Below, in pieces: positions 7,938 through 47,407 of a stretch of DNA of 49,560 bases (positions within the stretch are counted from its first letter, which is position 1; the number at the start of each line of letters is the position of its first letter). Source of the stretch: a virus; IMG/VR virus record IMGVR_UViG_3300010399_000046, positions 1-49,560 of that record. One strand, 5' to 3'. A model generated the notes under the pieces. That model saw nothing but the letters and a program-made list of their open reading frames with translations, was not told the DNA's origin and made no database searches. The position numbers and the translations under genes were made by a program.

Positions 7938-8843
7938 TTAAGCGGCCAATGCGTTAGAGAAATATGTCGATTGCTTGTGGTCGAGCAGGGCGTCGAGTTC
8001 GGTCAGCGGCTTGCCGTTGGGCCGCAGCCAATCATCGAGCAGTGATTCGCTGAGGAATACCGGGCAGCGGTCGTGCCCAGCGGCCGCGACTTCGGGCGGT
8101 GGTTCATCGGTCACCATTGCAAAGGAGCGAATCAGTCCGTTTCGTGTTTCCGTCACTTCGTAAAGGCTTGCGGCCCACATCTCTTCAAAACCATCTGGCG
8201 AGAATGTCAGCTCGACTTTGCGACCATCCCGTTCCACCCATTCGTAAAAGCGTTCGAACGGAAAAATTGCATGTTTGCTGCCGAATAATGGCTTCCATGT
8301 GCGCGCTGATTGCAGCGAATCGCGCCTCGCGTTGAACACATTGTATTGGCCTGGCACTTCCACCGCTGTGCGAGGGAGCAGGCGATAACGCATCGGCAGC
8401 AGCTCGCGCACACCGTTTGTTTCGATTATTACGGGAGCGAAATAGTAGGGATAAATCCGATAAGTCTCGCCTGTGGGCTGCTCAATCGGGCGCATCAGTT
8501 TGTCGCGCTTACGCAGTTTCGTTTCCAGCTGCTTCTGCGCGGTCTTTGTTGCCTTCACTTTGAGTCGCGATTCAATCTCTGCGATTTCCGCATGCAAATC
8601 CTCAATTGCTTGCCGCAACCTAGCGTCCTCGCCGGCCGTGAACTCGCGAATGCTCTTGGCTATCGATTTGGCTGCCATGCCGTCTAGCTCTAATGCGCCG
8701 GCGTCCATACCAAGAGGGATTTTGATCGAAGGATCGCGCACCCTCATTGCGTACAGATCGACGAATGCCTCGTCGCGCACAACGGCACGATACCTCGCGG
8801 CAATTTTCTTAAATGAGCGTTTTACCAGTGATGAATAACACAT
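7938..8843 (-). CDS. SRAP-domain protein (HMCES/YedK family)
   Basis: The start is placed at the ATG at 8841-8843, which puts the catalytic cysteine at position 2 (MCYSSLVKRS), after a GAGGGCGG site. Later family motifs are NVFNARRDSL (conserved Asn and Arg), FERFYEW (Glu) and HDRCPVFL (His). SRAP proteins crosslink to abasic sites in single-stranded DNA and shield them. Compared with YedK (about 220 residues) this 301-residue form has an extra charged, helical insert near residues 70-120. It may protect phage DNA during replication or damage. A terminator separates it from the toxin gene upstream. Confidence 0.9.
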   Translation of the reverse strand: MCYSSLVKRSFKKIAARYRAVVRDEAFVDLYAMRVRDPSIKIPLGMDAGALELDGMAAKSIAKSIREFTAGEDARLRQAIEDLHAEIAEIESRLKVKATKTAQKQLETKLRKRDKLMRPIEQPTGETYRIYPYYFAPVIIETNGVRELLPMRYRLLPRTAVEVPGQYNVFNARRDSLQSARTWKPLFGSKHAIFPFERFYEWVERDGRKVELTFSPDGFEEMWAASLYEVTETRNGLIRSFAMVTDEPPPEVAAAGHDRCPVFLSESLLDDWLRPNGKPLTELDALLDHKQSTYFSNALAA

Positions 8844-8884
8844 AGCCACCGCCCTCGTTGCGGGCAGAAGTTTAACAGACAGGC

Positions 8885-8933: not shown

Positions 8934-9389
8934 TCAACAATCTTCGTTCAACGATTCTGCGCTGAAGGGTCGCACCCAGTACGCTAACCAGTCTGCAAAA
9001 TCCTCTCTTGTGCATCGACCTACCACAAGTCCCTCGATGAAATCGACCAGCTCATGATCTGGGGCGGTAAGCTCCAAACCGTTCATTAAGAGAAACATGC
9101 CAGCGCACATAGCGGCTGTACGTTTATTCGCATTTAAGAAGGCATGGGCTTTTGCAAGACTGTAAGTCAGAACGGCGGTCAGCATAATGATGTCATTGCA
9201 CTGCTGCCAATATCTATATTGGCTGGGGCTGGCAATAGCTGATTCTAAAAGGTGCTCGCTTAAAAGACCGACCTGTTCATCTGGCGAGATGATGTTGATG
9301 ATTGCTTCGTTAATCGCAATGACATCTGGTGCAGTTAAATATCGAATCGCGCCTGGCGGCAACACGTCCTGTTGGTTGTCGCCGGACAC
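8934..9389 (-). CDS. doc: Doc-type toxin (Fic/Doc family)
   Basis: The 151-residue protein carries the Doc active-site motif HAFLNANKRTA (residues 82-92) and the family's N-terminal YLTAPDVIAINEAII. Doc proteins phosphorylate EF-Tu and stop translation; Fic relatives AMPylate targets. The histidine, asparagines and lysine-arginine are all present, so the enzyme looks active. It starts at GTG (9387-9389), 3 bases after the stop of a 55-residue partner gene. It is probably a lysogenic-conversion or plasmid-like addiction module carried by the prophage. Confidence 0.88.
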   Translation of the reverse strand: MSGDNQQDVLPPGAIRYLTAPDVIAINEAIINIISPDEQVGLLSEHLLESAIASPSQYRYWQQCNDIIMLTAVLTYSLAKAHAFLNANKRTAAMCAGMFLLMNGLELTAPDHELVDFIEGLVVGRCTREDFADWLAYWVRPFSAESLNEDC

Positions 9390-9791: not shown

Positions 9792-10073
9792 TCAGTTTCG
9801 GCACTTAACCACCAGACTTCTATTGGCGGTTTGTCCGCCGTAAACGCCAAATTGATTGCCCGAAAACGATGATTGCGAGTCACCATCCTTGCTTACTACC
9901 TCATAGCCGCGCGGGCCACATTTCTCGCCCGCTTTTTCGTAGCATTTACCCCAGGACAAATAGCTACTAGAGCAATTAATGGCGTAGGCGTCCGATCCAT
10001 CGGGTGCATAGGTATGGTTGGCAGTGGTGCAGCCGGCCACGGCGATAGAAGCAAAAAGCAAAATGGTCTTCAT
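9792..10073 (-). CDS. Predicted lipoprotein (93 aa)
   Basis: The N-terminus MKTILLFASIAVAGCTTA is a type II signal peptide with lipobox VAGC, so the mature protein would be lipid-anchored. The mature part has further cysteines (CSSS, GKCYEKAGEKCG) that could form disulfides. Similar small lipoproteins occur in bacterial genomes; the function is unknown. It lies downstream of the repressor, in the region expressed in a lysogen, so a role in surface change or superinfection exclusion is inferred. Confidence 0.75.
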   Translation of the reverse strand: MKTILLFASIAVAGCTTANHTYAPDGSDAYAINCSSSYLSWGKCYEKAGEKCGPRGYEVVSKDGDSQSSFSGNQFGVYGGQTANRSLVVKCRN

Positions 10074-17507: not shown

Positions 17508-18034
17508 ATAGGCCGAGACAGATATTCACCTATGCACTACCTAGCTTATGTTCCGCGCCGAAATGTCTAAACAGTCCGGTACAGGGCAAAAAAATGTGTT
17601 CGACATGCATGTCTGCATCGAAGTCCAATAAAAATGCGGCACATGTCAGGCGAAATCGCTCTGGGATTAGTAAGGCAAAGACTGCGCCAGATGGGTATAC
17701 ATGGATATATTTTCTGGAGGCGCCAGAGATTGGCCATATTAAAATTGGTAGAGCTCAAAATCTAATGGCTAGGCACGGCAGCATTCAGTCTGGTAGTCCA
17801 GTAAAAATCATAATCCTAGTTGCATTTCTGGCAAAAGATTTCGTAGAGAACGCTTTGCATGCAGAGTTTAAAGCGCACCAAGTAATGGGTGAATGGTTTC
17901 GTCCTGCAGATGACTTGCTTAAATTCATCGATAACGTGAAAGCCGGTCTACTCCCTAACAATCTGGGAGGGATTTACAAGGATATTGACGATGGGTCAGT
18001 CGTTATATATCATCCATCCCAAGCTACCGATTAG
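17504..18034 (+). CDS. Zinc finger plus T5orf172 domain protein
   Basis: The N-terminus has a CSAPKC...CSTC zinc finger. From about residue 65 the protein matches T5orf172 (YTWIYFLEAPEIGHIKIGRA, then ALHAEFKAHQVMGEWFRP). It is the second such protein in the genome (see 13306-13809). It overlaps Q by an ATGA, and its 3' end carries the late promoter. Function unknown; homing or regulation is possible. Confidence 0.75.
   Translation: MNRPRQIFTYALPSLCSAPKCLNSPVQGKKMCSTCMSASKSNKNAAHVRRNRSGISKAKTAPDGYTWIYFLEAPEIGHIKIGRAQNLMARHGSIQSGSPVKIIILVAFLAKDFVENALHAEFKAHQVMGEWFRPADDLLKFIDNVKAGLLPNNLGGIYKDIDDGSVVIYHPSQATD
17985..18013 (+). promoter_or_regulatory. Late promoter (PR'-like)
   Basis: TTGACG and TATCAT stand 17 bases apart, within the last codons of the T5orf172 gene. 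Transcription would start near 18020 and meet the terminator at 18057-18088 after about 40-70 bases, the arrangement used by Q-dependent late promoters. Confidence 0.55.
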
Positions 18035-18056: not shown

Positions 18057-18088
18057 AAAAGCCTCGCCCTCAAAGCGGGGCTTTTTTA
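18057..18088 (+). terminator. Terminator after the late promoter (tR'-like)
   Basis: GCCTCGC-N7-GCGGGGC (one G-T pair) with an A run before and six T after. It closes the early operon and would be the target of Q antitermination. Confidence 0.8.
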
Positions 18089-18106: not shown

Positions 18107-18361
18107 ATGACCCAATCGATCGACGCCGCCTCGAAGATTTCTGACATCGCTCAAAACGGCGGCGCTGCGGTCGCGATGGGTTCTGCCGCACTGGGTTTCG
18201 CCAATCAGGCGATGGGCTGGCTGAATCACAACAGCGCCGGCATTCTCGCGCTTTGCGGCATCGGTGGGTTTTTGATATCGGTTGCCGGTTTCCTCGCCAA
18301 GCGCAGACACATGGCAGCGCTGCTCGCGCATGAGCTGCGCCAGAAAGAGCGTCGCGTTTAA
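18107..18361 (+). CDS. Small membrane protein, holin-like (84 aa)
   Basis: Residues 20-40 (AVAMGSAALGFANQAMGWLN) are a weak hydrophobic helix. Residues 43-65 (SAGILALCGIGGFLISVAGF) form a clear transmembrane helix followed by a basic tail AKRRHMAALLAHELRQKERR. It is the first late gene. A holin is possible and the position fits, but a second holin-like gene lies in the lysis cassette at 44388. Confidence 0.6.
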   Translation: MTQSIDAASKISDIAQNGGAAVAMGSAALGFANQAMGWLNHNSAGILALCGIGGFLISVAGFLAKRRHMAALLAHELRQKERRV

Positions 18362-18487: not shown

Positions 18488-18622
18488 ATGAAACCAATCC
18501 GCATTCTCGCGGCGGCGCTCGCCTGCGCGCTGCTTTTCGGCTGCGCATCAAAGCCGCCCTACAACTCAGGTCCGGTTTACATCCAGCCGGCGCCTGGTGA
18601 ACTCCATTTAATTGTTAAGTGA
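18488..18622 (+). CDS. Small predicted lipoprotein (44 aa)
   Basis: MKPIRILAAALACALLFGC is a type II signal peptide ending in lipobox LFGC; the mature part is a short Pro/Tyr-rich peptide. An AGGATT site precedes the ATG. It resembles an outer spanin subunit in size and composition but has no Rz partner next to it; the Rz/Rz1 pair is at 44.6-45.1 kb. It is the first of a run of exported products. Confidence 0.6.
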   Translation: MKPIRILAAALACALLFGCASKPPYNSGPVYIQPAPGELHLIVK

Positions 18623-18632
18623 GGCAATAGCC

Positions 18633-19241
18633 ATGAAATACCGTAACCGCTTTGCTGCGGCGCTAATGCTGTGCGCCGCGTTTGTGCTGTCCATTTCTCA
18701 AGCGCATGCCGCTGCTGGCGCTTGGACGCTGACCAATGCGTTCAAGACGCGCATTCTCAACGGCGGTGCGATTGATCTCGATACCGACACGATCAAATTT
18801 ATTTTGCTGGCATCGACAACCAACGTCGTGTCCGGCCCCGCCGATTGTTATACGGGCGGCACTGGCACGGCAGTGACCAATGAGCTGTCAACAGCGAACG
18901 GCTATACCGCTGGCGGCGCGACGGCAGCAAGTCTTTCGATCAGCGGCACTTCAACCGTTACGTACGACACGGCGGATGCGGTATGGACGGCCTCTGGCGG
19001 ATCGATCGCAGCGCGCTATGTGGCAATGGTCGATACCACTGTGGCAAGCAAGACCATCATCGCCTATGCGCTGCTCGATACGACGCCTGCTGACGTTACC
19101 GCAACCACCGGCAATACGTTCACGATCGGCGTGGCGAATGTGTTTACGCTGGCGCAGCAGTATTTGTTCGATCACCTCTACCCATCGCCCATGCAGATGG
19201 CTGCGAACGACGCCAATTACGTCATGCGCAAAGCTGGTTAA
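18633..19241 (+). CDS. Exported protein with a phage virion-type domain
   Basis: Residues 1-26 are a Sec signal peptide ending AHA. The mature part matches a small protein common near phage structural genes: AWTLTNAFKTRILNGGAIDL, DTIKFILLASTTN, then VWTASGGSIAARY and LLDTTPADVTATTGNTFTI. In other phages that domain, as I recall it, starts directly with no signal. The start MKYRNRF at 18633 is 10 bases after the lipoprotein stop. Either a virion-like domain has been turned into a periplasmic or surface protein, or the family has a wider role than capsid or tail decoration. Confidence 0.75.
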   Translation: MKYRNRFAAALMLCAAFVLSISQAHAAAGAWTLTNAFKTRILNGGAIDLDTDTIKFILLASTTNVVSGPADCYTGGTGTAVTNELSTANGYTAGGATAASLSISGTSTVTYDTADAVWTASGGSIAARYVAMVDTTVASKTIIAYALLDTTPADVTATTGNTFTIGVANVFTLAQQYLFDHLYPSPMQMAANDANYVMRKAG

Positions 19242-19247
19242 TTCGCC

Positions 19248-20207
19248 ATGCGTAAATTCCTCGCCGGGTTATTGCTGCTCGCTACATCGCTGGCGATCGG
19301 CGGCAATAATTCTGGCTGGACCAATAGCGGCGGCTCGCTGTCGACGCAAGCGAAGTCGGTCGGTGTCGCAGCGGTAGCTGGCGGCGGCACTTTCCTATTC
19401 CAGGACGATTTCAAATCTAGCTCGGGCACCACGTATTCGTGGGGCACGCTGCCCATGACCAGCAAATCTACGTTTTGCTCGCAAGCCGGTAGCAATTGGC
19501 AGTATTGCAACGACATGGATTTGACCGGCACCAACCAAGGTGGCATCGACGCGTGGCCGCCCGATACCAGCAAAAACGCTTTTTTTATGAAATATATCGG
19601 CGATGGTGATACAAACGTCATTGCTCACAAATTCGACCCGAATCATACGATTGACACGGGCCGCCCGACAGAGATTTATGTGCAGTGGAAGGAATATCGC
19701 ACCAGCACCTTCGACTGCGCTCCCGAAAAGGATGCTCGTATAGGCATATTCACCGCAGGCCACTGGGCAGATAGTCACGATCAAACATCGACTGAATTGT
19801 ATTGGGGTGTTGGCACCGGCTCACCGACAACGGGTAACGATGCGTGCACAGGTTCAGGCATGTATCTGCAGGGTGATTGGAATTCGACCGATTTCCCGGC
19901 GAACGATGTCTGGAGTACTACCACTCTCAGTTACTCTAAAGGCGCCGCGCATACCTGGGAAATGCACGTCAAAGTTAACACACCGGGCAACCATGACGGC
20001 GCCTTGCAGATGTGGATCGACAGCGTATCAATCGGAAGCGCCACGAATATTAAATTTACAAACGCTACGCGTGATGCGCTGGGTCAATCTTATTTAGATA
20101 ACGTGCAGCTGGGCATGGCGGCCACGAATGGCGGCCTCGGAGCATTTAACGGCGTGTCCACGCGCTACATCACCGATTTCAAAATCAGCACATCGTATAT
20201 CCCATAA
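19248..20207 (+). CDS. Exported protein with lectin/glucanase-like fold
   Basis: The 319-residue protein begins MRKFLAGLLLLATSLAIGGN, a probable Sec signal. The body (FLFQDDFKSSSGTTYSW, YVQWKEYRTS, TWEMHVKVNTPGNHDGALQM and WIDSVSIG) has the strand pattern of concanavalin-like jelly-roll domains such as LamG or polysaccharide lyase folds. Binding or cleavage of a surface sugar is inferred; no catalytic residues can be assigned. It lies in the exported cluster ahead of terminase. Confidence 0.65.
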   Translation: MRKFLAGLLLLATSLAIGGNNSGWTNSGGSLSTQAKSVGVAAVAGGGTFLFQDDFKSSSGTTYSWGTLPMTSKSTFCSQAGSNWQYCNDMDLTGTNQGGIDAWPPDTSKNAFFMKYIGDGDTNVIAHKFDPNHTIDTGRPTEIYVQWKEYRTSTFDCAPEKDARIGIFTAGHWADSHDQTSTELYWGVGTGSPTTGNDACTGSGMYLQGDWNSTDFPANDVWSTTTLSYSKGAAHTWEMHVKVNTPGNHDGALQMWIDSVSIGSATNIKFTNATRDALGQSYLDNVQLGMAATNGGLGAFNGVSTRYITDFKISTSYIP

Positions 20208-20219
20208 CGAGGCCGCCAC

Positions 20220-21632
20220 GTGAAGCGAATTATTTACGGCCTACTTACAACACTGCTGATTGGGTTGTTCAGTGTTGATGCCAGTGCGGCGATAGCGGTC
20301 GGCGCAAAGCGCATTGATCATTTTTCTAATGTCAGCTCAGCAACTACCACCGGCATCACAACGGCTGCATCGGGCAGCACCTTTGTCGTTGCGGTATCGT
20401 TCGACCATACAACGCACATCGTCACAGGAATCAGCGATAGTAAATCGAACACGTACACGCTCGCAGGAACTGCTGGCGATTTTGGTTCGGTCTACTACTG
20501 CTCGAATTGCACGGGCGGCGCGAGCCATACAGTCACCATCACATTTGATGGTGCCGAATTTCCGATTGTTCATTTTCTCGAAATCACCGGCGCGGCGACG
20601 TCGTCTTATGATTCTGCGGTTACCGCAAAAGCTGAAGATTCCGCCTCGCCATTTACGGTAACGAGCGGCACGACATCACAAGCTGCCGAGCTGCTCGTGT
20701 CGTTCATTGCGTCAAATAGCGGCAGCAACCCGGTCAGTTATTCCGAATCGTCGGGCTTTACGATTCAGCAGCAGGATGGCGATGGGTCTAATTATTGCAC
20801 GTCGGCATTAGCACCCCGCATTGTCAGCTCGACCGGCACATTCACGCCGTCGTATACAGGTTCTGGAATTACTGGCAGCACCAATATTGTTATCGGCATC
20901 AAAGAAGCATCCGGCGGTGGCGGCGCAACAGCAAGTCCATCCGCGGCGTCATTAGTGCTGACCGGCGCGACGCCAACAATTACAACATCCGGCAACAAGC
21001 TCGCGACACCATCCACTGCATCACTCGCGTTAACGGGCGCTACGCCATCGCTGACTGTGCAGAATTACACGTGGTATACGCTACCGGCGCCAGGCAGCTA
21101 CGACAGCAATTCGATTCTCGCAGGTCAAACATATCCGACCGGTTCGTGGTTGCGCGTCGTCACCGATTGGGCGCACATCACGTCGGTGTACTCGACTGGC
21201 CCGCTGCAAAACGACATCAACGATTATTCGACAGCAGAGAGCGGCTACACCGGCAGCGATACCGCGACGTATGAGATCAAAACGCCAGCGCTGAGCACAT
21301 CGCAATACACGGTTACGGCAACGATCAGCAACAATATCAATATTGGCCCGTCGACAGCTTCGTTATCGCTGACAGGCGCCACACCGACGGTGACGGTGAC
21401 GAACAACAAGCTCGTAACGCCGAGCACGGCCAGCCTTGCGCTCACAGGGGCAACGCCAACCATCGCGGCCGGACAAAATGTGTTGGTTCAGCCGACTACT
21501 GCGGCACTGGCCTTGGTTGGCGCAACGCCTTCGATGCTGATCAATGGCGTCCCGACTGGAGTCAATTATTCATTCATCCGCCGCGTTGAGCGGTCACTTA
21601 TCCGCAGCGTATCTCGTAGCGTAGGGCGATAA
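20220..21632 (+). CDS. Exported repeat-containing protein
   Basis: The GTG start at 20220 follows a GAGG site. Residues 1-23 are a Sec signal ending ASA. Residues 24-230 form a beta-rich domain (IAVGAKRIDHFSN and on). From about 240, at least five copies of a P-S/T-x-A-S-L-x-L-T/V-G-A-T-P-T/S unit occur, in two blocks around a middle domain (about 290-370). This Ig-like repeat is known in phage tail and head proteins. The basic C-terminus (RRVERSLIRSVSRSVGR) is odd for an exported protein. Confidence 0.7.
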   Translation: MKRIIYGLLTTLLIGLFSVDASAAIAVGAKRIDHFSNVSSATTTGITTAASGSTFVVAVSFDHTTHIVTGISDSKSNTYTLAGTAGDFGSVYYCSNCTGGASHTVTITFDGAEFPIVHFLEITGAATSSYDSAVTAKAEDSASPFTVTSGTTSQAAELLVSFIASNSGSNPVSYSESSGFTIQQQDGDGSNYCTSALAPRIVSSTGTFTPSYTGSGITGSTNIVIGIKEASGGGGATASPSAASLVLTGATPTITTSGNKLATPSTASLALTGATPSLTVQNYTWYTLPAPGSYDSNSILAGQTYPTGSWLRVVTDWAHITSVYSTGPLQNDINDYSTAESGYTGSDTATYEIKTPALSTSQYTVTATISNNINIGPSTASLSLTGATPTVTVTNNKLVTPSTASLALTGATPTIAAGQNVLVQPTTAALALVGATPSMLINGVPTGVNYSFIRRVERSLIRSVSRSVGR

Positions 21633-21634
21633 CC

Positions 21635-21988
21635 ATGACGATATTTAAATCACTCCTGTTTGCTGTAGCGCTGTTTTGCGCATCGGATCTATACGCCGCA
21701 ACCTTCGGAACAATTTCGGCTGATGGGGATACCGATGCCGTTTTCGTCAACGGCCCGTTTGTCTTTAAGGCAGCCGGAACTTGGGGCTCAGGCACATTCA
21801 CGGTTTACTATAAATCCAAAACGGGCAGCTACAAATCACTGGTCACGGCAACCGCCTTAACGAGCGACGCTACCGGCCAAGTGCTGTATGACCTGCCAGA
21901 CGGAGTTGGCACGTTCGTGAAGGCAACGCTGAGCGGGTCGAGCAGCCCCTCATTGCTGTGGGAATTTATTGGTAAGGATGCGCGGTAA
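21635..21988 (+). CDS. Exported protein (117 aa)
   Basis: A Sec signal peptide (MTIFKSLLFAVALFCASDLY, then AA) precedes a 96-residue beta-rich domain with TWGSGTFTVYYKSKTGSYKS. This pattern resembles small phage decoration proteins but here carries a signal. It is the last of the exported cluster, 2 bases after the previous stop, and ends just before the terminase small subunit. Confidence 0.65.
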   Translation: MTIFKSLLFAVALFCASDLYAATFGTISADGDTDAVFVNGPFVFKAAGTWGSGTFTVYYKSKTGSYKSLVTATALTSDATGQVLYDLPDGVGTFVKATLSGSSSPSLLWEFIGKDAR

Positions 21989-21993
21989 GCCCA

Positions 21994-22578
21994 ATGGCTG
22001 AGGACGGTCGTTTAACTGACAAGCAGGCTATGTTTGTTCAGGAATACATTGTTGACCTCAACGCCACGCAGGCGGCGATACGGGCCGGCTACAGCGAAGA
22101 AAGTGCCAGCGTGATAGGTTGTGAAAACCTAACAAAACCTTACATTCAGGCCGCTGTGCAGAAGGCTATGGATTTGCGCTCAGAGCGAGTGCAGATCACT
22201 GCCGACAGGGTGCTGGTTGAGCTGGCAAAGATCGGTTTCGCTGATGTGCGCGACATGTTCACCGACTCTGATCAAATCAAATGCGTCAAAAATCTTCCCG
22301 ATGATATTGCGGCAGCCGTGCAATCTATAGAGATCGTCACTCGCCCTGATGGAGTTGATGAGAATGGCGATAAAACTGTTGAACATATCCATAAAATTAA
22401 GTTGGCAGACAAGAAGTCAAGCCTTGAGCTTCTTGGCAAGCACTTGAAGCTATTTGCCGATCGAATAGAACACACCGGCAAAGATGGCGCGCCAATAGAG
22501 GTCGAGAATCAAAGCATGACCGAAATCGCCAGGCGCATCGGATTTGCACTATCAAAAGCCATCAACGATAAATCGTGA
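21994..22578 (+). CDS. Terminase small subunit
   Basis: The 194-residue protein matches the Terminase_2 family: LTDKQAMFVQEYIVDLNATQ, then AAIRAGYSEESASVIGCENL and a ITADRVLVELAKIGF helix. It recognises the packaging site and feeds DNA to the large subunit. It overlaps the large subunit gene by 4 bases (GTGA). Confidence 0.93.
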   Translation: MAEDGRLTDKQAMFVQEYIVDLNATQAAIRAGYSEESASVIGCENLTKPYIQAAVQKAMDLRSERVQITADRVLVELAKIGFADVRDMFTDSDQIKCVKNLPDDIAAAVQSIEIVTRPDGVDENGDKTVEHIHKIKLADKKSSLELLGKHLKLFADRIEHTGKDGAPIEVENQSMTEIARRIGFALSKAINDKS

Positions 22579-24146
22579 GCCTCAAAGAAATATTGGCAGC
22601 GCTCGAGGTGATGCCAGAGAGTGATCGCCAAGCTGTTATTGAGGATGCGATGCTCGCCACAAAGGGCATGCGGTGGGTTCCAAACCCGGGACCGCAAGAG
22701 CAGGCGTATTTCTCCGAGGCGGATGTCCTCCTATACGGCGGGGAGCCTGGTGGCGGAAAAAGCCAGCTAATCCTGGGCCTTGCGTTCAACTGCCATCGCC
22801 GCTCGCTAATTATGCGGCGCAAATACAGCGACCTTGGGCGCATTGTTGAAGATGCCCTTAAGATTAACGGCGGGCGCGAGGGGTTTAATGGTTCGCCACC
22901 GCCAAAACTGCGAATCAGCGCAAACCAGCAAATTGATTTCGGTGCCGCGCACCGTGTGGGCGATGAACAAGATTGGATGGGTAAGGGCCGGGATTTTCTC
23001 GGTATCGATGAAGCCACCCATTTCGCGGAATCTCAAATCCGGTTTTTGATGGGCTGGAACCGCACCGAGCATAAAGGCCAGCGCGTGCGAACAGTGCTCG
23101 CGACCAACCCGCCGCTCAGCGCAGAGGGTTTGTGGGTTGTGTCCATGTTTGCGCCGTGGCTCGATCCAACCTTCCATAATCCCGCCAAACCAGGCGAGTT
23201 GCGCTGGGTTATTTCCAACGAAGAAGGCGTGGATCAGTGGGTTGACGGGCCTGAGCCTGTCGTTATTGATGGCAAGGAATATCGTCCGATGTCGCGGACC
23301 TATATTCCTGCATCGGTCGACGACAATCCGGAATATGCGGATTCCGATTACAAGCGCCAATTAGAGGCCATGCCTGAGCCGTTCCGCTCATTGTTGATGG
23401 GTGGATTCAAGACTTCGTTTCAGGATGCGCCGAATCAAGTTATTCCGACGGCATGGGTAACCGCGGCACAGGCGAGATGGAGTAGTTCTCCGCCCGAAGG
23501 CATCCCAATGTGCTCCATGGGTGTTGATGCCACCGGTGGTGGAAACGATCCCATGACGATTGCGTGCCGTCACGATGGCTGGTACGCGCCAATCGTTAAA
23601 ATTCCTGCGAAGGAGTTGCCGATCGAGAAGGCAGGGCGCATGGCGGCCGGCATTGTAGTTTCGCATCGTCGCGATAAAGCCAAGGTAATTATCGATCTTG
23701 GGGGCGGCTTCGGCTTATCGGCTTATGAACAATTAAAAGCCAACGATGTTGATGTTATCGGGTACAGAGGAGCGGAGAAGTCCGAGCGCCGAACCAAAGA
23801 TGGCAGCCTGAAGTTTTTCAATAAGCGCAGCGAAACTATTTGGCGCTTCCGTGAAGCATTAGATCCCGGGCAGCCGGGAGGCTCTACGATTGCTTTGCCG
23901 CCAAGCGCAACATTAACCGCGGATTTAACGGCGCCGACGCTTGATATGAGCTTCAACGGAATCAAGGTTGAAAGCAAAGAAGACGTCTGTGATCGACTCG
24001 GCCGCTCGACCGATGACGGCGATGCTGTGGTGATGGCATGGACCGCAGGCGCAAAGGCATCAGAGGCGCGTGATGGCGATATCCGCACAGCGCGCGCACG
24101 CACACCCAAAGTGATCCAAGGCCACCAGGCCGCACGTAGACGCTAA
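22575..24146 (+). CDS. Terminase large subunit
   Basis: The 523-residue protein has the ATPase Walker A GGEPGGGKS (residues 55-63) and Walker B FLGIDEAT (141-148). Its nuclease domain has the acidic residues MGVDATGGGND (Asp 318), IIDLGGGFG (about 373) and DDGDAVV (about 493). It packages DNA into the prohead and cuts it. The start is GTG. Residues are complete in both active sites, so it looks functional. Confidence 0.95.
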   Translation: MSLKEILAALEVMPESDRQAVIEDAMLATKGMRWVPNPGPQEQAYFSEADVLLYGGEPGGGKSQLILGLAFNCHRRSLIMRRKYSDLGRIVEDALKINGGREGFNGSPPPKLRISANQQIDFGAAHRVGDEQDWMGKGRDFLGIDEATHFAESQIRFLMGWNRTEHKGQRVRTVLATNPPLSAEGLWVVSMFAPWLDPTFHNPAKPGELRWVISNEEGVDQWVDGPEPVVIDGKEYRPMSRTYIPASVDDNPEYADSDYKRQLEAMPEPFRSLLMGGFKTSFQDAPNQVIPTAWVTAAQARWSSSPPEGIPMCSMGVDATGGGNDPMTIACRHDGWYAPIVKIPAKELPIEKAGRMAAGIVVSHRRDKAKVIIDLGGGFGLSAYEQLKANDVDVIGYRGAEKSERRTKDGSLKFFNKRSETIWRFREALDPGQPGGSTIALPPSATLTADLTAPTLDMSFNGIKVESKEDVCDRLGRSTDDGDAVVMAWTAGAKASEARDGDIRTARARTPKVIQGHQAARRR

Positions 24147-24245: not shown

Positions 24246-25022
24246 ATGGCGCGCATTCTTACGTCGCTACACGGCAAACTAGCAGGGCTCACTCGCACTG
24301 GGAAACTGATGGTTCCCGGTGGGTTTATTGCGGGCGAGGACGGCATGCAAATAGTGGAGCCGTCTCCATCGACTGTTTCGGTATTCGATGACTTCCTTGG
24401 CGATGTGATCGCCGACCAGTGGAATTCTCATGTTGGCTCGGATTCGCCTGCGGCAATTGCTGTTGCAGCCGCGGCGGGCGGTACGCTTGTACTGACTACC
24501 GGTGACTCTAACGCCTCTCTCGCAGCCGATGGCTCGGTACTCGACAGCTACCTGAACTGGTACGCGCAAAACGGCGGTCTTACCTTTAGCGCACGGCTGA
24601 AAGTTTCTTCTATCGCCACGGTGCAGTGCTGCTTCGGATTTACCGATCAAGTATCAGCGCTGGAAATGCCGGCCACTTTGTCCGGCACCACCTACACCAC
24701 AGTGGCAACTGACGCCGCGGTGTTCCTGTTCGATACCAGCGCAACCACAGACACGATTCGCTGCGTTGGTGTAGCCAATGATGTCGATGCGACCCATGTC
24801 GACACTGGCAATGCATGGGCTGCAAATACGTACGCCACATTCACAATTGAACTGGATGCGAGCGGCAACGCCAAGTTCATGATCAATGGTGTTCCGGTCG
24901 GTGTTGTAGCGAATGCCGTTACGCCGAGTGTCGCCCTGACTCCTGTGTTCGCCATCCGTTCGCTGGCTGCCGCGTCGTACACGATGACGATCGATTACGT
25001 CAACGTCTCGATGAATCGGTAA
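24246..25022 (+). CDS. Probable head decoration or fibre protein, jelly-roll
   Basis: The 258-residue protein begins MARILTSLHGKLAGLTRTGK with no signal peptide. From about residue 45 it has a jelly-roll-like pattern (VFDDFLGDVIADQWNSHVGS, LTFSARLKVSSIATVQCCFG, TFTIELDASGNAKFMINGVP). Such domains decorate capsids or bind sugars. It sits between terminase and the portal region, alone after a hairpin-forming gap. Confidence 0.65.
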   Translation: MARILTSLHGKLAGLTRTGKLMVPGGFIAGEDGMQIVEPSPSTVSVFDDFLGDVIADQWNSHVGSDSPAAIAVAAAAGGTLVLTTGDSNASLAADGSVLDSYLNWYAQNGGLTFSARLKVSSIATVQCCFGFTDQVSALEMPATLSGTTYTTVATDAAVFLFDTSATTDTIRCVGVANDVDATHVDTGNAWAANTYATFTIELDASGNAKFMINGVPVGVVANAVTPSVALTPVFAIRSLAAASYTMTIDYVNVSMNR

Positions 25023-34370: not shown

Positions 34371-36455
34371 ATGCCAACACTTCCAGATGCGTCATCGCTA
34401 GGCCGGCGTCCAACGCCTCAGCCTTCGCTCAGCATTGTTAGCGGGGTAGACGATCCTCGCAACCAGGCATTGCAGAATGTTGCACAAGGTATCGGCGATG
34501 TCGGTCAGGCGATGCTCAATCGGCAGGACCGCCAAGATGAGCTCAGCTATGCCAATGCGAAATCGCAATTTCTGCAGACCAAGGTTCAGCTCGATCAACA
34601 ATTTAAAAATGACCAGGATTTTGCGACTGCGCCGCAGCGGTATCAGGAGGCAATTACCAAGGCGCAGCAGGATGCAGCCAATAGTATTGGGAGCGCGAGA
34701 TACCGTTCAGAATTTGACAATGAGTCCGGTCTGCATGTGCGGCAGGGATTAGCATCAATCAATGAAATGGCATTCAAGAATAAATCGGATGCAGAAATTG
34801 GCAACACGCTTAATCTGGTCACGACTAATCGAGAAGCAGCCATTAAGGCGCCCGATGATGCTACGCGAATCGGGCTGCTAAATGCCTCGCGCGAATCAAT
34901 CTATGCGCTGGCAAAAAATGGTTATATCTCTGATGCCAAAGCCACTGAATTAAGCAAAAAAACCGCGCAGGATTATGCCGAGGCATCGATTAATGCATTG
35001 CCTCTTGACCAGCAAATAAAGCGGCTACGCGATACGACGCCAGGCACCGCAGCAGACTTCATACCATCCGATAAGCGCAACGAAATGTTGTTGCGTTCGC
35101 AGCGTGAATATCAAGCGCAGCAAGACAGGCTGCGTATTCTTGCCAATCAAGAACGCGCGCAATTTCGCGAGGATTTGTCGTATCGCGTGCAGGATGCACA
35201 GGCAGCCTACTTATCCGGCCAAGATGCCCCTGATGCACCGACACGTGTGGACTTTTACAAGGCATTTGATCCGGATCATGCCGAGCGCCAATGGCAGAAC
35301 TTCCAAACAATTCAGAATGCGGGAGGTGCGATTAAAAATTTGTACACCGCATCTCCGCAAGAGCGTGCTGATATTTTGAATCAGCATACGCCGGTACCTG
35401 GAGATGGGTTTGCAGAAAATGAAAAAATGTACAGCTTGCTCAGCGAAATCAATTCGCGCATAACGGCGCAACAGAAGTCGGACCCGGCCGCCTATGTAGC
35501 CAAGTACAATCCACAAATTGCTCAATCATTTCAGGCTGCAATGAACGGCGATTCGCAGGCTGCGAAACAATATGCCATTGCGACAGTAGCCGAACAAAAA
35601 CGATTGGGGATAACGCAACCTGACATATTGCCAAAGCAGATTGCTGCGCAGATCGCTGCGCAATTCTACGATCAGAAAGAAGGCGGTCAGGATTCGGCAA
35701 AATTAATGAATAGCCTGCAACAACAATGGGGCGCGATATTTCCGCAGATTTATCAGCAATTATCGGAAGACGATAAATTGCCGGCCGCTGCGTTCGTTAT
35801 TCCAAATATGTCAGATGATGGCGCAAAGGATCGGTTAGCGCGCTGGTCGCTCGTAGAAGATAAAACATTCGAGTCTAGGCTTGGCGATACAAAAACCAAA
35901 GATATTAAAACGAACTTGCAGCAACAGCTTGGTTCGTTCTGGAATAGCCTTTCCGTCCAAAATGGCGGCGAGCAGATTTACAACAAATTTGAATCACAAG
36001 CCTACAAACTTGCATTGGGATATGTGGCGAATGGTAAGAGTGCGTCCGATGCAGCGACGCAGGCAGCAACTGAAGTAATTAATCACAATTACAGTTTTGG
36101 CCCTACCTATCGTGTTCCAGTTGCCGAGATACCTGATCAAGTCATGCAAGGTGTCGCCACAACTACTGAAGAGTTGTCGAAATTAGATATTGCGCCATTC
36201 CCATCGCGTCTCGGTCTCAATACAGAGCAAGCGAAAAAAGCGACGCTCGACATCATTACTCATAACCCAGTATGGGTAACTAATGGCGATGAAAGCGGAT
36301 TGACGCTGTATGCGAAAGGCAACAATGGATTGAATATGGTTCGAGACAGCAATGGTAAGCCAATCCAGCTTACCTGGGAGCAATTGCGCGCTAGAAGCGC
36401 CCAAAAGTCAGCTCCATCGGATATGAGCGCTCCTGGCAGTAGTGGCGCATTATGA
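34371..36455 (+). CDS. Internal virion protein, T7 gp15-like
   Basis: The 694-residue helical protein is Gln/Ala/Asp-rich, with LQNVAQGIGDVGQAMLNRQD near the N-terminus and no signal or membrane helix. By size, composition and place (second of three ejection protein genes) it matches the periplasmic tunnel protein of T7-like ejectosomes. It ends in an ATGA overlap with the third gene. Confidence 0.75.
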   Translation: MPTLPDASSLGRRPTPQPSLSIVSGVDDPRNQALQNVAQGIGDVGQAMLNRQDRQDELSYANAKSQFLQTKVQLDQQFKNDQDFATAPQRYQEAITKAQQDAANSIGSARYRSEFDNESGLHVRQGLASINEMAFKNKSDAEIGNTLNLVTTNREAAIKAPDDATRIGLLNASRESIYALAKNGYISDAKATELSKKTAQDYAEASINALPLDQQIKRLRDTTPGTAADFIPSDKRNEMLLRSQREYQAQQDRLRILANQERAQFREDLSYRVQDAQAAYLSGQDAPDAPTRVDFYKAFDPDHAERQWQNFQTIQNAGGAIKNLYTASPQERADILNQHTPVPGDGFAENEKMYSLLSEINSRITAQQKSDPAAYVAKYNPQIAQSFQAAMNGDSQAAKQYAIATVAEQKRLGITQPDILPKQIAAQIAAQFYDQKEGGQDSAKLMNSLQQQWGAIFPQIYQQLSEDDKLPAAAFVIPNMSDDGAKDRLARWSLVEDKTFESRLGDTKTKDIKTNLQQQLGSFWNSLSVQNGGEQIYNKFESQAYKLALGYVANGKSASDAATQAATEVINHNYSFGPTYRVPVAEIPDQVMQGVATTTEELSKLDIAPFPSRLGLNTEQAKKATLDIITHNPVWVTNGDESGLTLYAKGNNGLNMVRDSNGKPIQLTWEQLRARSAQKSAPSDMSAPGSSGAL

Positions 36456-38416
36456 CGATTTACACTGAAGGCTCTATCGGTGCTGAGCAACCGACTTTGG
36501 AGGACTTTCCATCATCAACCGGTGAATCATTATCAGCTGCAGCGCAAGCGGCATGGGAAGGAAACCCATCGGTTGTAGTTAAAGATGCTGCCAATTTATA
36601 TGAAGCCAATACCGGAAAAAGCCTTGCTCCTTCGCCTTCGCATGTTGCCTTATTTGGGCTTCCTGGTGCTGCGTACGATTTTTATAAAACGCTACAGGCA
36701 CCTGATACCACCCAAAAAGTTGAGCGCACGGCAGCAGAACAACAAATTAAAGATGCTGGTGTTGATTTAAAGATTCCCGATTCTGGTTATTCGCAAGCTG
36801 CGCTCGATATTTTAATTAAACGCAAGCGCGACAATATGGCGCTGCAAGATGCAATGGCGCGTGCTCCTGGCGGGGTCGTGAATAGTAGCGCACGTTTCCT
36901 TGCGCAGATTGCCGCGAGCCTTGCCGATCCAACCAATATTGCAATCTCATTTATTCCAGTTGTAGGCGAGGCCAAATATGCAGAAATGTTGGCTAATGCC
37001 AGCGGTGCATTTGGCCGAACCGTTGTGCGTGCCGGTGTCGGCGCAGCAGAAGGGGCCGCAGGTTCTGCATTGATTGAGCCAGTTATTTACGGTGGACGCA
37101 CACAGTTACAAGACGATTATTCAATGGCTGATAGCCTTGAAAACATCGCGTTCGGCGGCGTATTCGGTGGTGGGCTGCATGCGGTCGGTGGTGGTTTGGC
37201 GGAATCCATACGCTCTGCTCGCGGACTGCCGCAGTCATGGGGGCGTACCGCGGCGAATGAGTCTTCGATTGCGGCTGCTAATGGGAATGCAGCACTATCA
37301 GGAACAATGCCGCCGTCTGAACCAGCGCCGCGCCGTCTAAGTGATGAAGCACTCGCCATAAGCCAACAGATAGACCGCGGTGCCTATACTGCCGAGCAGT
37401 TCGGCAAACTCTACGATGAGAACCCGGCACTCGCTAAAGAAATCGTTGCATTCCGCACTGGCGATCGCCCTAGCATCGAGCCAGCGCCATTTTATCGCGC
37501 AATCTCTATTGAGTCAGCGCGTGCGCAAGCCATCAAAGAATTATCCCCAGAGATTCGCGCACAGCTCACTGCCGATGCCGGTAATCTCGCCGATAAAGGC
37601 GTAATCGCCGACCTCAAAGCACAGCAGTTGGTGACCCAGGCTGAGCTAGATCGTTTGCGTGAGCAACCACAAGTCGTATTCAAGGAGACAGCCAAGGATC
37701 TGCAATCGACGGGATTAACGCGCAAGGAAGCCGAATCAAAAGCGCGCCAGCAATTGGCGGATCGCGAAGCTGAGTTAAATGCGAAAAAAGAAGCCATTGG
37801 CCAGCAGATTGAAACCAATGCAAAAGCGCAGCAAGCCGCACAAGCCATTGCGCAATTAGATAGGGGAGGAATACCCGACCAGTTTATCCAGCAAGTCGAT
37901 GCGCGCGCTCAGCAAATTATTGGCAAAGCCAATCTGCGCGAAGCGATTGCTTTGCCTCCAGAAATATCGGCGCGCTTTGCTGTATCCAATGCCGATCCTG
38001 AATTGCGTCGCGCGGCATTGAGCGCAGCAGTTACGCAGGCTGCACAAGGCAAGCTGCCCGATGTAAATGACATTATCCAAATGAAAACGGCCGATCCTAA
38101 AACAGTCAACAACCTTTCTGAAATGGCGCAGCGTGCAGCTCGACCAGAGGCATCGGCAACGTCAGATTTTTCAGCTGCAGATTCAGCTATCCAGCGCTAC
38201 AAGACTTTACCCAAAGACGCTAATTACCAAGCGGCCGAATCCGAGATGACAAAAGCAATCGATCGATTGATGGAATCGCAAAAAAACTTAGAGCAATCGG
38301 GTTTGAAATCCATCGATATAGATGCCGAATTAAAGCCTTTCGATGACGCCATAAAAACCGCCGATGAATATGGCAATGCGCTGCGCGCAGCTGCTTTGTG
38401 TGGTATCCGGTCATGA
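36452..38416 (+). CDS. Internal virion protein, N-terminal part or separate subunit
   Basis: The 654-residue protein has an N-terminal acidic region, a hydrophobic Gly/Ala segment (about 165-215; RAGVGAAEGAAGSALIEPVI) that could insert in a membrane, and a long coiled coil (about 385-460). Its stop overlaps the ATG of the next large gene. Together the two would equal one very large T7 gp16-type protein, so they may be two halves of an ancestral ejection protein. No lytic transglycosylase motif is visible. Confidence 0.7.
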   Translation: MTIYTEGSIGAEQPTLEDFPSSTGESLSAAAQAAWEGNPSVVVKDAANLYEANTGKSLAPSPSHVALFGLPGAAYDFYKTLQAPDTTQKVERTAAEQQIKDAGVDLKIPDSGYSQAALDILIKRKRDNMALQDAMARAPGGVVNSSARFLAQIAASLADPTNIAISFIPVVGEAKYAEMLANASGAFGRTVVRAGVGAAEGAAGSALIEPVIYGGRTQLQDDYSMADSLENIAFGGVFGGGLHAVGGGLAESIRSARGLPQSWGRTAANESSIAAANGNAALSGTMPPSEPAPRRLSDEALAISQQIDRGAYTAEQFGKLYDENPALAKEIVAFRTGDRPSIEPAPFYRAISIESARAQAIKELSPEIRAQLTADAGNLADKGVIADLKAQQLVTQAELDRLREQPQVVFKETAKDLQSTGLTRKEAESKARQQLADREAELNAKKEAIGQQIETNAKAQQAAQAIAQLDRGGIPDQFIQQVDARAQQIIGKANLREAIALPPEISARFAVSNADPELRRAALSAAVTQAAQGKLPDVNDIIQMKTADPKTVNNLSEMAQRAARPEASATSDFSAADSAIQRYKTLPKDANYQAAESEMTKAIDRLMESQKNLEQSGLKSIDIDAELKPFDDAIKTADEYGNALRAAALCGIRS

Positions 38417-43710: not shown

Positions 43711-43866
43711 AAATTCCACAAAGCGCGAATTTCTTCAGTGCTACATCGGCTGGAAACTCAATTGATTTTTTTCTGCGGTATTTCGTGTGCAATCCGATGT
43801 GAGTGCGGCGGAGGGTTTTACCGCACCAAATCCCAATCTCTAGCAAGGGTGGTTCGACGGTCCGAA

Positions 43867-44391
43867 ATGAGCGATTCGAGCTTTGTAAAATGCCTGGCCT
43901 TTCTCACGTCGTCAGTGATCGAAGGCGGCTACAGCAGCGATCCAAAAGATCCTGGAAATTGGACGAGCGGTGTCGCCGGCGTCGGCGAAATGAAGGGAAC
44001 AAAATACGGAATATCCGCCGCCAGCTATCCCGATCTCGACATTAAAAATCTCACGCTCGATAAAGTCGGGCCGCTTTACCGAAATGATTTTTGGGTACCA
44101 GCATCGTGCGGCGCGTTATCCGCCGGTGTCGACGCGATGATGTTCGATGCTGCGGTCAATCAGGGCGTCAAGGCCGCGAAAATCATGCTGCAGCGGGCCT
44201 GCCATGTTTTCGTTGATGAAGAGATCGGGCCAAAGACATTACTGGCCGCGCAGTCGTTGAGCACGTTGCGCGATCTTGCCGTTGAGCGACAACTTCGCTA
44301 TGCGCACTCGAAAAATTTCGATGTGTACGGTGATGGATGGTTGACGCGCGTCATGCGTGTTTATGAATTTGCGAGAGGGTTGCAGTCATGA
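43867..44391 (+). CDS. Endolysin, GH108 N-acetylmuramidase
   Basis: The 174-residue protein matches glycoside hydrolase 108: FVKCLAFLTSSVIEGGYSSD with the catalytic Glu at about residue 19, PKDPGNWTSG, then GTKYGISAASYPDLDI and a C-terminal peptidoglycan-binding-like helix bundle. It cuts the glycan backbone of peptidoglycan at lysis. The start MSDSSF has a weak ribosome site; longer in-frame starts lack support. No signal peptide, so it needs a holin. Confidence 0.9.
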   Translation: MSDSSFVKCLAFLTSSVIEGGYSSDPKDPGNWTSGVAGVGEMKGTKYGISAASYPDLDIKNLTLDKVGPLYRNDFWVPASCGALSAGVDAMMFDAAVNQGVKAAKIMLQRACHVFVDEEIGPKTLLAAQSLSTLRDLAVERQLRYAHSKNFDVYGDGWLTRVMRVYEFARGLQS

Positions 44392-44609
44392 ATCTCAAAG
44401 ATCGGTTACGCGCTGGCGCGAATTTCATCCTCGATCGTATGAAGGAGCCAAGCACATGGCAGGGTGTCGGTTTCGTGGTCACGCTCTGCGGTGCCAAATG
44501 GGGTGTAGGCGTGGACTGGGGTCAGGCTGCGGCAATGGGCGGCATCGTGAGCGCTTTCCTGAAAGCGACGATTCCGGATGTGCTGGGTGAAAAAAATGCC
44601 GCTCCTTAA
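44388..44609 (+). CDS. Holin-like membrane protein (73 aa)
   Basis: The sequence has a charged N-terminus (MNLKDRLRAGANFILDRMKE), then a hydrophobic helix (STWQGVGFVVTLCGAKWGVG) and a second weak one (WGQAAAMGGIVSAFLKATIP). It is coupled to the endolysin stop (ATGA) and followed by Rz, the normal place for a holin. Similar small proteins are conserved near phage lysis genes. Confidence 0.7.
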   Translation: MNLKDRLRAGANFILDRMKEPSTWQGVGFVVTLCGAKWGVGVDWGQAAAMGGIVSAFLKATIPDVLGEKNAAP

Positions 44610-45087
44610 TTTTCTGTCGCCCTACAAAACCATGATCGAGATCGCGGCATTTGTTGCTGCGCTGGCATTCGTGTCGATCGAAATTCACCGCTTTATGGAT
44701 CACCAGCAAGACATCGGTTATCAGCGCGCCGTCGCTGAATATCAGGCGAAGCAAATAGCCGCAGACAAAGCCAATGCCAAGATCGAAGCCGCACTGAAAA
44801 AACAAGCCGAGGACGCACAAAATGCTGCAAATAACCGCGAGGCATCTATTCAGGCCGCTAGCGCTGCTACTGTCGCTCTTTCAAACAGCCTGCGCGACAC
44901 ACTCACCAGTATCCGCGCAGGCGTGCCCACAGCCACCATCAATGCCCTACGTACGACAACCATTGCCCTTGGGGACGTTTTTGCAGAGTGCCAAGACCGA
45001 CGCCGAAGCGTGGCAGAAGAAGCTGAACGGCTTAACAGCGAAAAACGCACCCTGATTGAAGCCTGGCCGAAAAGCGATGGACGGTGA
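44596..45087 (+). CDS. Rz: Rz-like inner spanin
   Basis: The 163-residue protein has one N-terminal membrane helix (MIEIAAFVAALAFVSIEIHR) and a long coiled coil (about 45-160), the layout of inner spanins. With Rz1 it fuses inner and outer membranes at the end of lysis. ATG at 44596 is chosen; ATG at 44578 is also possible. Rz1 is nested in its 3' half in another frame. Confidence 0.8.
   Translation: MPLLNFLSPYKTMIEIAAFVAALAFVSIEIHRFMDHQQDIGYQRAVAEYQAKQIAADKANAKIEAALKKQAEDAQNAANNREASIQAASAATVALSNSLRDTLTSIRAGVPTATINALRTTTIALGDVFAECQDRRRSVAEEAERLNSEKRTLIEAWPKSDGR
44822..45055 (+). CDS. Rz1: Rz1-like outer spanin lipoprotein, nested
   Basis: The 77-residue frame lies entirely inside Rz in a different frame, as in lambda. 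It begins MLQITARHLFRPLALLLSLF and continues to a TAC lipobox cysteine. The mature part is proline-rich (CPQPPSMPYVRQPLPLG). The residue 3 before the cysteine is Gln, which is unusual for a lipobox. Position and the proline-rich region support the call. Confidence 0.75.
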   Translation: MLQITARHLFRPLALLLSLFQTACATHSPVSAQACPQPPSMPYVRQPLPLGTFLQSAKTDAEAWQKKLNGLTAKNAP

Positions 45088-45238
45088 ATCGCGCTGCCAT
45101 CCCTGCATTGCTGCCGGCCGGCGCATAACGGCGGAAATGGCCAAAGAGATCGACAATATCAAACGCAAGCGAACCGAAGAGGCTTTAAAACATGCAGCAT
45201 ATATTCAGAATATTGTTATTGATCGGCGTCGCCAGTAG
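45077..45238 (+). CDS. Small cysteine-pair protein (53 aa)
   Basis: MDGESRCHPCIAAGRRITAE has a CHPC pair; the rest is a charged helix. It overlaps Rz and the next gene at its ends. The ribosome site is weak. Not recognised. Confidence 0.45.
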   Translation: MDGESRCHPCIAAGRRITAEMAKEIDNIKRKRTEEALKHAAYIQNIVIDRRRQ

Positions 45239-45605
45239 CGCGCACGCAATTACGGCACCCGCAGTTACGTCGGCAGCGCTTTGCGGCGTTCATATCGCTT
45301 GGAATTTGCCATCGACTCGAAGTGACACGGCGAAAACGCCTCTGCCGATTTCGGAGCTGAAGGAATCCAGGCTCTACATAGCATCGCTGTCCGCATTTAT
45401 TGCAGTGCCGGCTCCAGCAACAACCTACGATTACATTATTGCTCCCGGTGCGAGCACGGCTCCGGCGGACGCTGTCGCGGTAACTGCGGTGGATTCGGCT
45501 GGTGCGGAATCTGCCAGCACAGCGCCTGTGGCATTCCCGGTTATCAGCTGCCCAAAGTCACGACCCGCTGCACCCGCTGGGCTTACAATCACTACGGTCA
45601 AGTAG
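45192..45605 (+). CDS. Exported fibronectin III-like protein (137 aa)
   Basis: The Sec signal peptide MQHIFRILLLIGVASSAHA ends in AHA. The mature domain has Fn3-like strands (PLPISELKESRLYIASL, TTYDYIIAPGAS, AVAVTAVDSAGAES) and two cysteines that may pair. It is the last rightward gene. Fn3 domains in phages usually bind sugars or surfaces; a secreted form is unusual. Confidence 0.65.
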   Translation: MQHIFRILLLIGVASSAHAITAPAVTSAALCGVHIAWNLPSTRSDTAKTPLPISELKESRLYIASLSAFIAVPAPATTYDYIIAPGASTAPADAVAVTAVDSAGAESASTAPVAFPVISCPKSRPAAPAGLTITTVK

Positions 45606-47234: not shown

Positions 47235-47407
47235 GAATCCCACCCGCTGCGACTGTAAAAAATACGACCATTTTGCTTTACCCACACCTCACCTTCGGGA
47301 ATCAGCCCTCGCTGCCTTTGTGCTTCGAGAGAGCGGGGTGACAACCCAACATCTTTGGCAAACTCTTTTTCTGTTACATGATCAACAGCGCGGACAGCTT
47401 CGCTCAT
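47075..47407 (-). CDS. xis: Excisionase
   Basis: The 110-residue protein has a winged-helix excisionase fold: EKEFAKDVGLSPRSLEAQRQ, then GLIPEGEVWVKQNGRIFYSR and SGWDSWVEKQ. The basic Ser/Arg-rich C-terminus overlaps the first 160 bases of int in another frame. It directs Int towards excision. It lies at the far end of the PL-like operon, so excision would follow loss of repressor. Confidence 0.8.
   Translation of the reverse strand: MSEAVRAVDHVTEKEFAKDVGLSPRSLEAQRQRGLIPEGEVWVKQNGRIFYSRSGWDSWVEKQRNSLMESRSKVIESSSASAGTASGAAKRTRIRQHRKTSKEPAIYAVK

Follow-up and report, generated by a model that had tools for sequence, protein, structure and literature searches.

The virus record IMGVR_UViG_3300010399_000046 of IMG/VR (49,560 bases, referred to here in its entirety as the window) carries, just upstream of its terminase genes, a block of five genes arranged head to tail (18488-21988), the first of which encodes a lipoprotein signal and the next four of which encode Sec signal peptides. 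Comparison with other phage sequences indicates that the block is a mobile cassette under purifying selection, and that it consists of relatives of phage accessory surface-type (fibre/decoration-type) proteins that were converted to export. Derivation from phage protein families plus export is a conclusion that we hold with high confidence, and the putative cassette probably acts on the cell envelope.

Results

Signals were called using sequence rules together with conservation in a second phage, L016, described below. A rule-based score (basic n-region, hydrophobic core or h-region, AXA-type cleavage site) was computed for the 60 predicted genes of the window and was positive at the gene's own start in seven, namely the five genes of the block, an Fn3-like gene that follows the Rz spanin gene, and an early lipoprotein gene (Table 1). 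Given 7 of 60, the permutation probability of a run of five is 2.8e-4. The background was taken from 80 other phage loci, where 22 of 599 open reading frames (ORFs) were flagged, six of them from the L016 phage; without the L016 ORFs it is 16 of 587 (about 2.7%), and the chance of a run of five at that rate is about 8e-7. Whole-protein shuffles matched the observed scores in 0 to 14 of 2000 cases. The weakest signal is that of gene 3, which has no crisp AXA site and whose score is reached by 2 of 2000 shuffles. The first-pass annotation of this DNA had described a lipoprotein followed by four Sec-exported proteins, with a sixth exported, Fn3-like protein after the spanins; all six genes were recovered where it had placed them, each with a positive score at its own start.

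The mature domain of gene 2 matches phrog_644 (E 5.6e-17), with residues 27-168 aligned to positions 2-135 of the 174-position profile, and the match starts right after the predicted cleavage site of a 26-residue signal peptide. A scan with the family alignment found 80 phrog_644 loci, two of which are the L016 phage, leaving 78 others. Signals were sought by automatic scoring in 74 rows and by eye in odd rows, the remainder being nearly identical to a scored group. The 78 other loci all lack a signal peptide (0/78), and the two automatic positives among the 74 rows are both the L016 phage. The start methionine of phrog_644 relatives typically aligns with the cleavage point of gene 2 (MAAGAWTFTN...). 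Gene 2, with its signal peptide, is an exported variant of phrog_644 and not a typical member. The two exported copies also have long C-terminal tails: beyond the last conserved motif they run on for 37 and 46 residues, versus 9-16 in the 65 relatives that could be measured. In the best tree the two copies group with L035 and L084; although this tree places L035 and L084 among the signal-bearing copies, it is not rejected that the latter have a single origin (approximately unbiased test, p 0.36). A host-derived secreted protein was considered as the source of gene 2 and rejected because the gene nests inside phage phrog_644. The predicted model of gene 2 resembles phage tail-collar fibre domains (best PDB match E 0.14).

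Gene 4-like proteins are encoded within about 4 kb of phrog_644 in 42 of the 78 loci, often immediately adjacent, and signal peptides were found on none of these neighbours (0/42). The mycobacteriophage neighbours of phrog_644 are annotated as minor tail proteins, and in some other phages the pair is located after the capsid or portal gene. The repeats of gene 4 also occur in mycobacteriophage minor tail proteins (BLASTP E 2e-9 to prophiGD17-2 gp100), and tblastn with gene 4 gave matches in 44 mycobacteriophage records (E limit 1). The whole protein has no PHROG match to the minor tail families phrog_553, phrog_2106 and phrog_13352. Gene 5 has a signal-less relative in the L036 phage, directly ahead of the large terminase gene (39% identity over 93 residues, E 1.4e-11), and the similarity begins where the gene 5 signal ends. 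The best PHROG match of the L036 protein is a 'virion structural protein' (E 0.004).

Because genes 2, 4, and 5 have signal-less relatives in phages, they are best read as phage accessory surface-type proteins that were converted to export, and comparison of homologues with and without the signal clearly favours such a secondary conversion. The proposal in the first-pass annotation that the mature parts look like virion or surface-binding domains is partly supported, by these three genes. Gene 3 is weakly similar to polysaccharide lyase 14. The Polysacc_lyase_14 match has an E of 2.9e-4 (21 bits) for gene 3 and 8.1e-6 (26.1 bits) for its L016 copy, against a cut-off of 27 bits, and a profile of the pair matches alginate lyase 6kcv (E 0.0035); the likeness spans about 50 core residues. 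No relative of gene 3 was found in 29 phrog_644 records searched whole, except in L016.

Scans with gene 4 and gene 3 identified one other phage, represented by L015 and L016 (identical DNA, two assemblies). No further phage came up when gene 3, gene 4, the gene 2 pair, and the holin were used in viral scans, and two phages are therefore known to carry the cassette. Genome contigs scanned with the alignments of genes 4 and 2 yielded no relative. The L016 phage is an HK97-like siphophage; it has an integrase-like gene, and its head genes are unrelated to those of the window: a ClpP-type protease, a phrog_10 capsid (E 2e-78), and a phrog_442 adaptor (E 6e-28). Its lipoprotein (60% identity to gene 1, lipobox conserved) and genes 2 (48%), 3 (63%), and 4 (76% overall, 96% in the head domain) lie between the major capsid and head-tail adaptor genes, in the same order as in the window and with signals intact; gene 5 is absent. 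Since the same gene order is found in an unrelated phage, the block appears to move as a unit. An 82-residue ORF flanked by 33-bp direct repeats (93.9% identical) is inserted between the L016 lipoprotein and gene 2 (ORF and repeats at L016:2978-3321).

Between the window and L016, synonymous divergence of the lipoprotein, gene 2, and gene 3 has reached or nearly reached saturation, and the signals are retained in both phages despite this divergence. The ratio of nonsynonymous to synonymous divergence (dN/dS) is 0.18 for gene 2, 0.17 for gene 3, and 0.26 for gene 4; the head domain of gene 4 has a dS of 0.18 and a dN/dS of 0.11, and for the lipoprotein dN/dS is not measurable owing to saturation of synonymous sites. 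The differing divergence suggests that parts of the cassette were exchanged at different times. The two phages also have in common a 73-residue holin (99%) and Rz (84%), and they therefore probably share a host group. At the start of the L016 contig a tRNA-His gene lies beside the integrase, so this phage probably integrates too. A protease at the host-like end of the contig matched only plasmid-borne S8 peptidases, the best from Sphingomonas and Novosphingobium (<40%).

Gene 1 encodes a 44-residue lipoprotein with the signal MKPIRILAAALACALLFGC followed by ASK, where C is the lipid-anchored cysteine. Its PHROG matches are spanin-like and weak (E 0.015-0.25). It was considered as an Rz1-type outer-membrane spanin and rejected, as Rz lies 26 kb away with its own nested Rz1 candidate. 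The latter is a 77-residue lipoprotein encoded within Rz in a different frame, with a weak spanin match (E 0.038). Among the PHROG and Pfam matches of gene 1, which come from general family scans without a direct comparison to Llp or Cor, there is no Llp/Cor-type family. A second small lipoprotein is encoded in the early region of the window and is unrelated to the block.

Further signal-bearing proteins occur near phrog_644 in other phages and elsewhere in the two cassette-bearing phages. The 321-residue tail fibre of L016, encoded after the tail-tip protein (L029:4182-5147, which is 35581-36546 of the L016 contig), has the signal peptide MKKMSFVISVMLAAMVAIVPA followed by SQ. Position 11 of phrog_24121 and phrog_29834 matches the fibre at residue 34, which puts the start of these families near residue 24, at the cleavage site. 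In L035 a signal-bearing tailspike-like protein with a weak pectate-lyase-like match is encoded one gene downstream of phrog_644, and in L059 a signal-bearing protein of 543 residues is directly downstream of it. These exported fibre, tailspike-like, and other proteins are candidates that suggest repeated conversion to export. The sixth exported protein of the window is Fn3-like by eye and has no family match and no relative among the compared loci. A phrog_644 phage encodes a small exported protein of similar size and Fn3-like look (L060:279-647), with no sequence match to it. Another viral contig encodes, near phrog_644, a 937-residue protein (L096:4851-7664) that combines a signal peptide and CxxCH motifs with a middle domain of the hydrazine-synthase-alpha type (E 2.5e-11).

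The features of the window are listed in Table 1. The phage is temperate as judged from its gene content, which includes an integrase-like gene; early genes are on the minus strand, and tail genes are also present. Its large terminase subunit (TerL) is, among named phages, nearest to those of Bordetella phage BPP-1 and of Acidovorax, Limnohabitans, and Acinetobacter phages (about 40-42% identity). Upstream of the terminase genes of BPP-1 and of the relative L018 there are no genes comparable to the block, which thus looks like an addition at the slot ahead of terminase. TerL of L018 (4714-7161, +) is interrupted by an intein-like insert with a weak Hom_end_hint match at its start; antisense to the insert is a 238-residue HNH_3 endonuclease-like ORF (L018:5186-5902, -), an unusual arrangement.

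A consensus scan found no promoter-like site inside the block; the one site upstream precedes a terminator-like hairpin. Together these two features could be read as a late promoter with a downstream terminator in the layout of an antiterminated late operon, a reading that is suggestive only, and the scan found one promoter-like site versus 3.6 expected from shuffles, thus no enrichment. Between terminase and portal is a non-exported LamG-like protein, in the slot that holds a short tail fibre gene in BPP-1. PDB matches of this protein to antibody chains were taken as composition noise. The early region also encodes a Fic/DOC-family protein and an SRAP protein.

Table 1. Positions of the block and of other features in the window (a slash marks the predicted cleavage site of a signal peptide)
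Feature	Position	Strand	Description
SRAP protein	7938-8849	-	early region; E 3.5e-27
Fic/DOC-family protein	8934-9389	-	early region; E 2.6e-10
Second small lipoprotein	9792-10073	-	early region; positive signal score
Promoter-like site	17985-18013	+	TTGACG-17-TATCAT, consensus scan; upstream of block
Terminator-like hairpin	18057-18085	+	11 pairs; between promoter-like site and block
Small membrane protein	18107-18361	+	84 residues, holin-like in shape; hydrophobic segment, basic tail; no significant family match
Gene 1	18488-18622	+	lipobox LFGC after hydrophobic stretch; mature part about 26 residues
Gene 2	18633-19241	+	signal peptide SQAHA/AAGAW; phrog_644 domain; C-terminal extension
Gene 3	19248-20207	+	probable signal peptide; domain weakly similar to polysaccharide lyase 14
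Gene 4	20220-21632	+	GTG start; signal peptide DASA/AIAVG; 207-residue head domain; PSTASLxLTGATPT repeats
Gene 5	21635-21988	+	signal peptide DLYA/ATFGT; small domain
Small terminase subunit (TerS)	21994-22578	+	phrog_51, E 3.2e-44; downstream border of block
TerL	22575-24146	+	follows TerS
LamG-like protein	24246-25022		E 7.7e-4, below cut-off
Portal-like protein	from 25353		
Major capsid protein	from 28500		phrog_3437, E 4e-59
GH108 endolysin, holin-like protein, Rz	43738-45087		
Rz spanin	44578-45087		
Candidate Rz1 lipoprotein	44822-45055	+	nested within Rz
Sixth exported gene	45192-45605	+	Fn3-like by eye; after Rz
Integrase-like gene	46092-47285	-	

Discussion

Virion proteins of tailed phages are made and assembled in the cytoplasm, and the conserved export of their relatives therefore indicates that these have another function, away from the particle. 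Our first choice among the possible roles, held tentatively, is that they mask glycans or receptors on the host surface late in infection and at lysis. The cassette genes would be transcribed with the late operon, as suggested by the location of the block within the late head/packaging region in both phages. Sec and the signal peptidases would carry the proteins to the periplasm, and the lipoprotein would end up in a membrane. By the time of lysis the proteins may attach to glycans or receptors on the host envelope. Progeny and rival phages would then not be lost by adsorbing to the producing cell and its debris, or superinfection would be excluded. Masking fits the origin from surface-type proteins and a precedent from phage T5, in which purified pb5 added to cells blocks T5 infection and the llp lipoprotein gene adjoins that of pb5 (PMC9586334).

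Several points weigh against this interpretation and its premises. In a diderm host, soluble proteins exported through Sec get no further than the periplasm unless something carries them on, which weakens surface masking before lysis. We infer virion membership of the phrog_644 and gene 4 relatives from neighbouring genes and annotation. The gene 4 matches are repeat-rich and were obtained without a low-complexity filter, and hhalign of the gene 4 head domain with mycobacteriophage minor tail domains is not significant (probability 1.8%). The AlphaFold model of gene 2 is modest (predicted template modelling score 0.59), and that of gene 3, made from two sequences, is unusable (mean predicted local distance difference test value, pLDDT, 30).

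It is also conceivable, though unlikely, that the cassette is a secreted polysaccharide-acting set, with gene 3 a lyase or binder for alginate-like glycans and genes 2, 4, and 5 binding modules, which would loosen capsule or biofilm so that progeny leave and spread. The Polysacc_lyase_14 matches of gene 3 and its L016 copy and the match of the pair profile to 6kcv are in its favour, but the matching core is short, neither copy reaches the Pfam cut-off, and the fold model gives no help.

Lysogenic conversion, which we consider rather improbable, would have the cassette expressed from the prophage and changing the lysogen's surface, with effects on exclusion, adhesion, or biofilm, in the manner of lambda lom and bor. 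The window phage is temperate by gene content, the L016 phage probably integrates, and the proteins are predicted to be exported. However, the consensus scan located no promoter-like site inside or directly ahead of the block, and in both phages the block falls within the late head/packaging region, at a different position in each.

That the proteins are virion parts after all, with signals that serve membrane targeting for assembly or with exported proteins that attach to particles after lysis, is quite improbable. It would agree with the L016 block occupying the place of a signal-less cluster in L033 and L057, soon after the capsid gene, and with the only recognisable separate fibre gene of L016 being signal-bearing. 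Signals with AXA sites should, however, be removed by cleavage and so set the protein free, and we know of no tailed phage that builds its virions outside the cytoplasm, which also counts against it. Chance hydrophobic N-termini or wrong start codons are very improbable: the weak cleavage site of gene 3 and the simplicity of the scoring leave some room for them, but the sequence evidence speaks strongly against. The signals form a run of five, the cleavage sites of genes 2, 4, and 5 are of the textbook kind, the lipobox is conserved, and L016 has retained the signals although synonymous divergence of gene 2 and the lipoprotein has reached saturation.

Masking by converted surface-type proteins has partial parallels in known systems. 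The exclusion lipoproteins of the T5 Llp/Cor type are likewise small phage lipoproteins encoded beside receptor-binding genes that act on the envelope during infection (PMC9586334), whereas gene 1 has a mature part of 26 residues, and of the four exported proteins encoded after it at least three come from phage families that are normally cytosolic. The inhibition of T5 infection by pb5 similarly indicates that receptors could be occupied by an adhesin-type protein that is free of the particle (PMC9586334), but pb5 was added artificially, whereas in the cassette the signals are encoded by the genes themselves. T4 Spackle differs in being the single product of an early gene and an inhibitor of the tail lysozyme, and is not known to derive from a virion adhesin; it resembles the cassette proteins in that it is a phage protein which reaches the periplasm by export and prevents superinfection (PMC7677548). 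Ordinary clusters of phrog_644 and repeat proteins, including those in mycobacteriophage minor tail regions, contain the same gene 2 and gene 4 families, often adjacent, but in the 78 loci they are without the signals that the cassette carries. Lambda lom and bor are exported lysogenic-conversion genes inserted among late genes. They resemble the cassette in encoding exported products among late genes, but are not known to be derivatives of virion families, whereas the cassette combines several virion-type families with signals as a set.

Exported phage proteins are thus known singly (Llp, Cor, Spackle, lom, bor), and a mobile set in which virion-family proteins have been turned to export looks new. 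The first-pass annotation knew of no described phage system with such a layout, and we likewise found no description of one in the literature searched, which included few subscription journals. Possibly, though this is doubtful, the cassette represents a new class, a transferable cassette in which virion adhesin and decoration genes were captured by signal peptides and now supply the host envelope and its surroundings with particle-free surface proteins that mask receptors or act as decoys late in infection. If masking is its role, it would be a general and easily recognised means by which phages protect their progeny or exclude rivals.

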